Below, one piece after another: positions 17,595-60,395 of a DNA stretch of 64,000 bases. Below the pieces are notes generated by a model. It was not told the origin of the DNA. It saw only the letters and a list, made by a program, of their open reading frames with translations, and did not search any database. The stretch is from Alkalicoccobacillus plakortidis (GTDB taxonomy: Bacteria; Bacillota; Bacilli; Bacillales; Bacillaceae_D): assembly GCF_023703085.1 (NCBI RefSeq), contig NZ_JAMQJY010000005.1, forward strand, positions 1-64,000, written 5' to 3'. The position numbers and the translations under genes are program-made. Position 1 is the first letter of the stretch. Each line of letters begins with the position of its first letter.

Positions 17595-18952
17595 TTAATC
17601 AAATATGATTTCCTGTTGGAATTTGCTGGCGAGGTTGAATAATCCTGGCCCAATGAATCCCTCACTATGATCATCTTCAGAGAAAATGTAATACCATTCT
17701 CCTTGTTTCTGAACTAATTCAAAAGACCTTGTAATATTAATAGATGGTTCATAATGATGGAATGAGATTTGGCCTGTTCCATCTATGAATTCCCGATCGA
17801 AACCATACCCATCTATCAAGGTTAACTTCGCATCTTCTAATGAAATGTTCGGGTCAAGTTTACCAAATGAGTAATAGCGGTTTTCTTTGGTACTTTCATC
17901 TGAAAACCTCCACTCTGTAAAACCTGTTCGCTCTATTTTTTCAAGTGTAGCTCCCTCTCTAATATAACTAGTGAATCCAAGCTCATGTTCATACAGCTGG
18001 AATTCTACAAACTCCCATTGGAATCCTCCCATAACCATGGTTCGAGTAATAGGTCTTCCATGCTTTTTATCATAAGCTCCTAACGAGATTTCATAATCAC
18101 TTTCTGGAATAATTGAACTTAAGGTGTAATAAGTAGCGGAAAGTTTTTTTGGTTGACTTACCGGTACATCTGAAAATAAAATGAGCTTCTTATCAAAAAG
18201 GGTCGCCTCTACATAATCGTACAAACGTCCTTTTCGGTCATTTTTCATGGTGAAAAATGTTGTATCTTCATCTAGTTCAATTGCAAATCGATCTTTAAAA
18301 TTTTCCATAAATGATCCGTCAGTAACAGGATATTTCTCTTTATAGCTTGCGAGTTGTTCAATTGGAACCTGTGTCGCCTCGGTATAACGATAATTTGAAA
18401 GAAGTTCTGTTTTGGCTCGCTCTATTTCATCTGCTGGTGCTTCTTTATCAAACAAAAGAATGGTTTGATGAAGCCCATTAGGTCCTTCAATGGTTGCCTT
18501 ACTACCCTGTTCAAACTCAGAATTATAACTTGTAACGTACCAATCAGATAGAGCCATAACTGAAAATTCCCCATCATGGATGGATTCACTTTCACCTCCT
18601 GAACCTAAATCGAACGGTTCTCTAACCAAAACTTGAGAAAGTACATCCTCATCTTCTTTTATTTGAGTGAGATCAATCTTATGTTCTACGATCTCTTCTC
18701 TTTCCGATTCTTTCTGTTCAACTGGTTCCTCGGCTTGGGTTGTCTTGATTTTCATTATCTATGGCTTGGAATAAATGTAAAAGCTAACAAACCCATCAAT
18801 ACCGCAGCACCAATTCCAGCTACATACGTCATTTTATTTTTGGGCTTTGGTTTCTCCATATCATGCATACCTTGCTTAAAAGAGTTAAGGCTTTTTGTAT
18901 AGGCACTATGAGGTAATATTATGTATTTCTTATCGTTTGAATGATTATCCAT
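17595..18952 (-). CDS. Membrane-anchored anti-sigma-like protein, two frameshifts
   Basis: The reading frame is split into an N-terminal 65-residue piece (18952-18755) with one helix (VAGIGAAVLMGLLAFTF) and a C-terminal 386-residue piece. Removing one A at each of two CCAAGC sites (18764-18769 and 18733-18738) joins them through FIPAIDNENQDNPAEEPVEQ. The product, about 450 residues, has a cytoplasmic N terminus, one membrane helix and a large extracytoplasmic domain. It overlaps the ECF sigma gene stop and is its likely anti-sigma factor. The outer domain family is not recognised. Confidence 0.7.
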
Positions 18953-19478
18953 TCCAGGCTACCCCCTCATCAAGCTGCATCTTCAACATCTTTTTTGCTC
19001 GTTTTTGGGTAGATTTCACTGACATCACCGAAACTCCTATAATTCTCGCTGTATCAATCAGTGAAAAACCTTCAATATAACGTAGATGTAAGATCCTTCG
19101 ATACTTCAAAGGTAATCTCTCTATTGAATGTTGAAGGTCTGTGAGGATCTCACCCCGTTCAAATCCTCCATTATGTTCTATTAATTCCTCTTGCAGTGGA
19201 ATCGTTTTTAGTTGATTCTCCTGTTTCCTGTAGTAGTCAATAATCGCATTTCGTGCAATGACATAGATCCATGTTTTAAACGAAGATCGTTGTTTAAATT
19301 GATATAGTTTCGTTGACACTTTATAAAATACTTCCTGGAGAATCTCTTCAGCATCATTATAATTCTTCGTTTCCGTATAAATATAATGATAGATTTGACG
19401 CGCATATCGTTTATGTAATGCCTCTAAAGCGAGCTCATCGCCCTCGAGTATTCTATGTATTAATTCCTTATCATCCAA
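18945..19478 (-). CDS. ECF sigma factor
   Basis: Region 2 is present at residues 10-75 (ALEALHKRYARQIYHYIY, NDAEEILQEVFYKV, SFKTWIYVIARNAIIDYYRK) and region 4 at 115-165 (LPLKYRRILHLRYIEGFSLIDTARI). The start is set at TTG 19478, nine bases after GGAGGGGG; longer upstream frames lack a site. Cotranscribed with the anti-sigma-like gene. Repeat array 3 lies 100 bp upstream of its start. Confidence 0.85.
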   Translation of the reverse strand: MDDKELIHRILEGDELALEALHKRYARQIYHYIYTETKNYNDAEEILQEVFYKVSTKLYQFKQRSSFKTWIYVIARNAIIDYYRKQENQLKTIPLQEELIEHNGGFERGEILTDLQHSIERLPLKYRRILHLRYIEGFSLIDTARIIGVSVMSVKSTQKRAKKMLKMQLDEGVAWNG

Positions 19479-19658
19479 GCCTTCACTCCCCCTCCACCTA
19501 TATAGACGGATCAATCCATCTAAAAGTGGCACGAATTTTAAATAATTCTAAGAAATTGTAAGTTATAAGCTATTTAGCAAGAAAAATATTGAAAGTACCA
19601 AGGTGGATGGGGGTTCTAACAAGAGGTAGGAGTAGCCATCAAGAGAGGAGCGTGATTC

Positions 19659-20045
19659 ATCAAGAGCAATTCAATATCAAGCAAGACCGACCTAACTACT
19701 CTAAGAGGAACTCACTCTTTAGCAAGCTCCACCTTCTCTCTCCAAGAGCAACGCTCTCTTTAACAAGCTCCATCTCCTCTCTCCAAGAGGGACGATCTCT
19801 TTACCAAGACCGACCTCCTCTCTCCAAGAGCAACGCTCTCCTCTCCAAGCTCCACCTTCTCTCTCTAAGAAGAGCGCTCTCTTTAACAAGCTCCACCTCC
19901 TCTCTCCAAGAGCAACGCTCTCTTTACCAAGACCGACCTCCTCTCTCCAAGAAGAACGCTCTCTTCATCAAGCTCCATCTCCTCTCTCCAAGTGGAACGC
20001 TCTCTTTACCAAGACCACCCTCCTCACACCAAGAAGAACGCCCCT
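19659..20045. repeat. Tandem repeat array 3, 41-bp unit, about 9-10 copies
   Basis: The TCCAAG core (or its variant) falls at 19659, 19700, 19741, 19782, 19823, 19864, 19905, 19946, 19987 and 20028, exactly 41 apart. Unit: CTCTCCAAGAGCAACGCTCT plus CTTTACCAAGACCGACCTC. It is the reverse-complement orientation of arrays 1 and 2 (TCTTGGTAAAGAG). The half unit AGAGCAACGCTCT is self-complementary. The uninterrupted open frame over it is 166 codons but has no credible start site. Confidence 0.9.
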
Positions 20046-20127
20046 TCCAAAGCACTTCCACAACAAAAACAGACGGAACGGACAACTAAAATTGTCTGTT
20101 TCGCCTGTTTGGAACTTCGTATTTATT

Positions 20128-59756: not shown

Positions 59757-59944
59757 ATCTTCTTTTCATTACTCCTTCTCTGCTGCATATTTTTAAATCT
59801 ATAATACATTAGTTTCATTTTAAGGACTGATTGTTAAACGCATGTAGGGAAAGTGTTAAGATCATTAAATTTCATGTAGAGGTGAAGAGATTTATGACGA
59901 AGATTATGAGAAGGAGAAAAGAGAAGAGTGATTTCTAATCACAC

Positions 59945-59980
59945 GAAAAAACCCTCCCTGCTCCAAGAGCAAAGAGGGCG
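59945..59980. terminator. Terminator, copy 2
   Basis: ACCCTCCCTGCTCCAAGAGCAAAGAGGGC; near-identical to 56562-56597, downstream of rpsI on the minus strand. Confidence 0.75.
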
Positions 59981-60001
59981 AACATTGATATAGCAAGTAT
60001 A

Positions 60002-60395
60002 TTAACGTTTTGAGAACTGAGGTGCGCGACGTGCTGCTTTAAGACCGTATTTCTTACGCTCTTTCATACGTGCGTCACGAGTTAGGAATCCAGCAGATTT
60101 AAGAGCTTGGACGGTTTTCTGGATCTACTTTAAGAAGTGCACGTGAGATACCGTGACGAATTGCACCAGCTTGACCAGTGAATCCACCGCCGTTTACGTT
60201 TACGTGTACATCATATTGTCCTACTACATCGATCTCATGAAGTGGTTGTTTAACAATAAGCTTTAAAGTCTCAAGACCAAAATACTCATCTAGAGAACGA
60301 CCATTAACTACGATATTTCCATCACCGGGAACAAGGCGTACACGAGCAGTTGAGTTCTTGCGACGACCTGTACCATAATATTGTACTTGTGCCAA
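60002..60395 (-). CDS. rpsI: Ribosomal protein S9 with one-base frameshift
   Basis: S9 start [18 protein letters not shown] and [16 protein letters not shown]. Then CCAAGC (60115-60120) in place of CCAGC makes an early stop; removing a base restores [21 protein letters not shown] and the terminal SKR. S9 is essential and its tail contacts P-site tRNA, so a real truncation is implausible. Confidence 0.93.

Follow-up and report, generated by a model that had tools for sequence, protein, structure and literature searches.

Extra bases at GCTGG in the Alkalicoccobacillus plakortidis genome as probable consensus errors at a motif that is probably modified

Introduction

In Listeria monocytogenes R20-0026 (ST1081), GCTGG is described as a nanopore error hotspot of unclear cause and enzyme (PMC10687267). 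Reference-based correction lowered the mismatches of this strain from 5670 to 67, and the use of amplified DNA raised the quality of such modification-affected genomes (PMC10687267). In nanopore assemblies of Klebsiella pneumoniae, consensus errors are described at the Dcm sites CCAGG/CCTGG (PMC6591954). ModD1, a type III methyltransferase of Neisseria meningitidis, makes CC(m6A)GC (PMC13248616). We found this adenine methyltransferase in the literature, and no cytosine-5 methyltransferase of GCTGG/CCAGC; in the available text of PMC5487053 these words occur only within a table of 5-base cleavage sites, and in that of PMC12067966, which concerns nanopore sequencing of related genera, Alkalicoccobacillus appears in the reference list only. 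Two 5-methylcytosine methyltransferases acting on one asymmetric pentamer are described for LlaJI, where they accompany McrB-like and PD-(D/E)XK subunits (PMC1459862).

Here we consider a 64,000-nucleotide stretch of the A. plakortidis genome (the window; positions 1-64000 of contig C5 of genome G000) together with the whole genome and four congeners (G001-G004). The genus is not known to include a pathogen. A sequence-only reading of the window had listed eleven places where GCTTGG/CCAAGC stands for an expected GCTGG/CCAGC, and had favoured a sequencing or polishing error over a mutational process or a decoding mechanism. We regard the repeated extra base as almost surely a systematic misreading of one five-letter motif, and the interrupted genes are most likely unbroken in the cell.

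Results

Interrupted genes in the window

All eleven listed sites are present, eight of them exactly where they had been placed; the other three lie at 21902, 47082 and 60105 rather than 21901, 47092 and 60115. They are given here with two further positions that emerged from alignments, the one at 57437 being absent from the earlier list.

18733..18738, plus strand: GCTTGG, putative insertion in a putative anti-sigma gene (gene on the minus strand); frames 17598-18758 and 18758-18958 meet nearby
18764..18769, plus strand: GCTTGG, second putative insertion in the same putative anti-sigma gene; from frames alone
21902..21907, plus strand: GCTTGG splitting a cytochrome P450 gene; PF00067 positions 59-136 (E 3e-4, under the curated cut-off) and 215-431 in two frames
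31433..31438, minus strand: GCTTGG splitting an FMN oxidoreductase (ene-reductase) gene; PF00724 positions 4-84 and 81-338 in two frames
33098..33103, minus strand: GCTTGG near the 3' end of an SDR gene; from frames alone
33486..33491, minus strand: GCTTGG splitting the same SDR gene; PF00106 positions 2-85 and 91-192 in two frames
36518..36523, minus strand: GCTTGG in a putative small-protein gene at 36 kb; from frames alone
37698..37703, plus strand: GCTTGG splitting an HGSNAT_cat/DUF418 gene; PF07786 positions 1-89 and 103-187 in two frames, the latter under the cut-off and sharing its (second) frame with PF04235
46294..46299, minus strand: GCTTGG near the 5' end of the 16S rRNA gene; extra base in alignment with G003
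47082..47087, plus strand: GCTTGG shifting the frame of a gene named pdaB in the sequence-only reading; net +1 against G002 and G003
47197..47202, plus strand: second pdaB frame change, at or after GCTGG; net -1 base against both relatives
57437..57442, minus strand: GCTTGG aligned to GCTGG in G002, lying between ORFs 56609-57307 and 57478-58800; from the G002 alignment only
60105..60110, plus strand: GCTTGG splitting rpsI (ribosomal protein S9; gene on the minus strand); PF00380 positions 1-87 and 86-121 in two frames

A one-base shift is independently supported at seven of the eleven, either by alignment to a relative (16S at 46294, rpsI at 60105, pdaB at 47082) or by a Pfam profile whose successive parts fall in two frames (P450, ene-reductase, SDR at 33486, DUF418 and again rpsI). 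At 18733, 18764, 33098 and 36518, the reading frames are compatible with a shift by frame inspection alone. The rpsI site reads GCTGG in both G002 and G003. In pdaB, the relatives' sequence has diverged around 47082, so that only the net +1 is clear, and the net missing base falls at a GCTGG 120 bases beyond its GCTTGG. As the sequence-only reading had held, genes of both strands are affected as well as rRNA, and many GCTGG sites (72 in the window) are intact. The altered sites span 16S, 23S, rpsI, pdaB and position 57437 between listed ORFs, and are thus independent of coding or RNA function.

Some GCTTGG words belong where they are. Between 46.2 and 64 kb, an inserted base relative to a congener was seen at 4 of 13 GCTTGG words and the other nine have no gap inside the motif, which argues that many GCTTGG words are native.

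The three sites noted earlier in a repeat array (7918, 7960 and 8001) are also present. The array occupies 7800-8280 of the window with units of ~41-42 bases, three of which read GAGCTTGGGTC where others read GAGCTGCTTC. A Bacillaceae-1 RNA (RF01690) is encoded at 44607-44670, between the 16S and 23S genes.

Word counts in the window and the genome

The window holds 50 GCTTGG words, and shuffled sequences hold 24.78 on average (SD 5.12); none of 100 shuffles reaches 50, so the surplus is beyond chance. Genome-wide, A. plakortidis has 3178 GCTTGG in 4.366 Mb (728/Mb), compared with 544, 507, 537 and 540/Mb in G001, G002, G003 and G004 (2123, 2029, 2094 and 2375 words in 3.9, 4.0, 3.9 and 4.4 Mb, sizes rounded). 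From the mean congener rate, the surplus is estimated at ~850 words. The reversed word of GCTTGG, used as a control, shows no surplus (252/Mb vs 266, 262, 284 and 233/Mb in G001-G004). As the contigs are written, the G000 words divide unevenly between strands, with 1422 forward and 1756 reverse.

GCTTGG density is 0.81/kb in C5, 0.85/kb in C1:1.48-1.62 Mb and 0.58/kb in seven other 20-kb samples of G000. These last show no raw surplus over the sampled relatives (0.58/kb in G002, 0.56/kb in G003), indicating either that the surplus is uneven along the genome or that the samples are small. The intact motif GCTGG occurs in the same three sets at 1.22, 0.81 and 1.11/kb and is denser in sampled G002 (1.64/kb) and G003 (1.76/kb); base composition or real divergence may be partly responsible for the low values in G000.

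rRNA operon copies as an internal control

We aligned eight rRNA operons of G000 together with two from G003. One of the eight, at the end of contig C8, was set aside as noisy, and counts were made in the 16S and 23S genes of the seven clean copies, leaving out the more variable spacers. The 13 GCTGG/CCAGC sites thus give 91 motif cells, of which ten are altered: four by insertion (GCTTGG or CCAAGC), two by substitution (GCTTG) and four by deletion (GCTG). All eight 16S/23S indels in these copies sit in GCTGG/CCAGC and none elsewhere, and the ten variant cells outside the motif are all substitutions. Motif columns, with one flanking column on each side, make up 96 of 4504 columns yet contain 10 of the 20 variant cells. 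One copy has no alteration and most copies differ in their sets; one deletion is common to C5b, C5c and C2a, two of which have no other change. The two G003 copies keep the motif at every one of the 13 sites. At the site near the 16S 5' end (46294), the seven other G000 copies read GCTGG in four cases and GCTTG in three, one of these being the noisy C8 copy. Real mutation or decoding could hardly have made such a motif-bound pattern, and a consensus error at the motif fits. The one-base insertion at GCTGG of the sequence-only reading is upheld, and its extent proves wider than claimed: it is genome-wide, and the rRNA copies also carry deletions and substitutions.

The C8 copy (C8:62000-68387) has 296 non-motif differences from the consensus in 16S/23S and differs at 8 of the 13 motif sites, at one of them since the copy ends there. 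Either the contig end is noisy or the copy is divergent.

Comparison with congeners

Where a relative has GCTGG, A. plakortidis has GCTTGG at 7 of 109 sites (C5 vs G002), 9 of 102 (C5 vs G003) and 9 of 153 (C1 vs G002), against 1/103 and 0/104 in the G002-G003 control. In the reverse direction, relatives' GCTTGG at G000 GCTGG sites number 0/89, 0/87 and 0/81. The comparison with close genomes that had been proposed as a check therefore shows GCTGG kept in the relatives, with a one-sided direction. The insertion is carried by only 12-22% of the sites that read GCTGG or GCTTGG in G000.

When one-base insertions are ranked by 5-mer with a flank filter, GCTGG/CCAGC comes first in all three comparisons (7/94, 10/92 and 8/114) and is absent from the eight 5-mers listed for the G002-G003 control. 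One-base gaps are common in these alignments (66 and 102 insertions, 72 and 80 deletions; 93 and 98 in the control) and mostly look like alignment noise, so we used only motif-resolved counts. A stricter filter leaves 15 and 9 insertions against 4 in the control, part of them at GCTGG and part elsewhere. Outside rRNA, GCTTG substitutions do not exceed the control (3/109, 5/102 and 5/153 vs 0/103 and 5/104); we therefore rejected GCTTG as a general error form, although it is present in rRNA copies.

Flanking bases explain only weakly which sites are altered. Among 124 distinct aligned sites that read GCTGG, GCTTGG, GCTTG or GCTG in G000 (otherwise diverged sites were dropped), 32 are altered, 11 of them as the doubtful GCTTG; by preceding base, the altered share is 6/12 after C, 6/17 after G, 14/50 after A and 6/45 after T. 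At C5:69641, 84430 and 104651, CCTGC in G002 corresponds to CCAAGC in G000 (4 of 91 CCTGC sites), where perhaps a real GCAGG-to-GCTGG change was followed by the same error.

Candidate methyltransferases

A profile search for PF00145 found four cytosine-5 methyltransferase genes in G000, one in G001 and none in G002, G003 or G004. Two of the four lie in tandem on the minus strand at C1:2593245-2595666 (locus L164).

L164:9500-10666, minus strand: cytosine-5 methyltransferase, 388 aa (PF00145)
L164:8245-9489, minus strand: cytosine-5 methyltransferase, 414 aa (PF00145)

An asymmetric site needs two enzymes to be fully methylated, which fits a tandem pair. The pair is a plausible, if unproven, cause of motif modification. 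Amino-methyltransferase families were searched as well. PF01555, the family that we would expect to catch Mod enzymes, and PF02086 have no match in G000, and PF07669 has nothing over the cut-off. PF02384 has one 39-bit match, with a counterpart of like size and score in all four congeners; additional PF02384 genes are present in G002, G003 and G004, none of which shows a GCTTGG surplus. As none of the four families offers an adenine or N4 candidate private to G000, cytosine methylation is favoured. The more specific proposal, that the pair modifies asymmetric GCTGG/CCAGC with one enzyme per strand, within a defence island of HNH and PD-(D/E)XK proteins, rose on the same grounds from slightly below an even chance to an even one.

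On one side of the pair is a gene for a 377-aa HNH protein. On the other, beyond a broken stretch, come an ORF of 232 aa that has no family, an AAA-type protein of 494 aa and a DUF2357/PD-(D/E)XK protein of 602 aa. The 494-aa protein has AAA-type Pfam matches that are all under the cut-off and a PADLOC match to PDC-M26A (5.2e-46); the 602-aa protein matches PDDEXK_7 (1.5e-31) and DUF2357 (9.3e-40). Neither the HNH nor the AAA protein has a PDB relative at E 1e-3. The broken reading frames, at C1:2591885-2593147 (L164:6885-8147) between the pair and the AAA and PD-(D/E)XK genes, have what we take to be an IstB-like look. There is no GCTGG in the 9233 bases of the candidate island, against 4.4-4.9 expected (P 0.01-0.015), a weak sign of avoidance that was noticed after the fact.

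The two enzymes have best relatives with 88% and 87% identity. Genera named within the top 120 of ~8000 scored for each belong to Bacillota, for example Bacillus, Lysinibacillus, Paenibacillus and Clostridium. At E <= 1e-120, relatives of the 414-aa enzyme occur in 7 of 398 genomes of the class, its own included. A lactococcal plasmid encodes two adjacent methyltransferases, one of which shares 57% identity with the 414-aa enzyme; their neighbour is annotated as a PLD-domain restriction endonuclease gene. The methyltransferase pair may thus be modular.

The two other PF00145 genes lie beside phage-type genes, within C1:15432-19376 (L149) and C1:1646216-1649731 (L150). They are at C1:16932 and C1:1647716, the second covering only profile positions 1-169 of 324, and are possible causes of the motif errors.

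Discussion

So, are the frameshifts real? On this evidence, they are not a feature of the organism. We conclude, with a probability of about 0.88, that the extra bases are consensus errors at GCTGG/CCAGC, a motif that is most likely modified, which would distort the signal of native long reads. The errors concentrate in one short motif in rRNA copies and congener comparisons alike, there is a genome-wide surplus, the rRNA copies show several error forms, and the motif is intact in relatives and sister copies. The preference of the sequence-only reading for systematic sequencing or polishing error is thus borne out by rRNA copies of the same genome, by congeners and by the errors published for this motif in Listeria.

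Under this explanation, GCTGG/CCAGC would carry a modification in the cell, probably 5-methylcytosine, that distorts the signal of a method reading native DNA in long reads, presumably nanopore. Basecalling and polishing would then write GCTTGG at a fraction of motif sites and, within rRNA copies, GCTTG or GCTG as well. The tandem cytosine-5 methyltransferases would be the best candidates for the modifying enzymes. The low density of GCTGG in G000 speaks for the explanation too. Against it count the seven 20-kb samples with no raw surplus, the small share of sites that carry the insertion and its weak dependence on flanking bases, the control-level GCTTG substitutions beyond rRNA and the predominance of mismatches over indels in Listeria.

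A basecaller or polisher bias at GCTGG as a hard context, with unmodified DNA, would agree with the many intact GCTGG sites and the varying error forms. We consider it unlikely, given that like motif-bound errors are tied to modification in Listeria (GCTGG) and Klebsiella (Dcm CCAGG/CCTGG), and that G000 has cytosine-5 methyltransferases where three of its four congeners have none. Very improbable is a mutational process targeted to GCTGG, for instance at a methylated cytosine. It would leave hundreds of frameshifted genes in a living cell and would account for the motif specificity and the genome-wide surplus, but rpsI and conserved rRNA sites are among those affected. Deamination of 5-methylcytosine yields C-to-T changes, not insertions. 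We rejected this process since near-identical rRNA copies mostly carry different changes, despite the deletion that C5c and C2a share with C5b, and since rpsI is affected. Programmed frameshifting at GCTTGG, which would keep the shifted genes functional and agrees with the family-like sequence that persists on either side of the site in split genes, is rejected as having next to no probability, because rRNA is affected, pdaB also has a net missing base at GCTGG and native GCTTGG words are common (nine of 13 in 46.2-64 kb have no motif gap against relatives). Insertions, deletions and substitutions at one motif, on either strand and in rRNA, fit neither mutation nor decoding.

If motif errors are the explanation, a public genome contains an estimated ~850 false one-base insertions that could be mistaken for pseudogenes or recoding, and similar errors may affect further assemblies built from long reads of native DNA where the bacterium is unusually methylated. 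Should the methyltransferase link hold, error hotspots could be read backwards to the specificity of uncharacterised methyltransferases.

Among known systems, ModD1 methylates the very pentamer at which G000 shows errors, CCAGC (PMC13248616); it is a Mod enzyme that methylates adenine, and G000 has no PF01555 match. The Klebsiella case ties consensus errors to a 5-methylcytosine motif, although a different one from GCTGG/CCAGC (PMC6591954). In LlaJI, too, a pair of neighbouring cytosine-5 methyltransferases is accompanied by AAA and PD-(D/E)XK proteins, and its site is likewise an asymmetric pentamer, GACGC/GCGTC in place of the candidate GCTGG/CCAGC (PMC1459862). The tandem methyltransferases have their equivalent in G000, the 602-aa protein corresponds to the PD-(D/E)XK nuclease subunit R2, and the 494-aa protein is a candidate counterpart of the McrB-like GTPase R1, with Pfam AAA matches solely below the cut-off. 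The LlaJI order, in which four genes run the same way and the two restriction genes directly follow the methyltransferases, is not seen in G000: the orientation is the same, but M2 is separated by the broken stretch and the 232-aa ORF from the AAA gene, and M1 has an HNH gene on its far side. For the motif itself, Listeria R20-0026 is an exact precedent. Its errors are mainly mismatches, established in R9.4 data against Illumina truth, whereas those in G000 are insertion-prominent and the platform is presumed, but the two share the identical pentanucleotide, many sites genome-wide and survival through ordinary polishing (PMC10687267). If the tandem pair does modify GCTGG/CCAGC, the Listeria hotspot gains a concrete enzyme class to seek.
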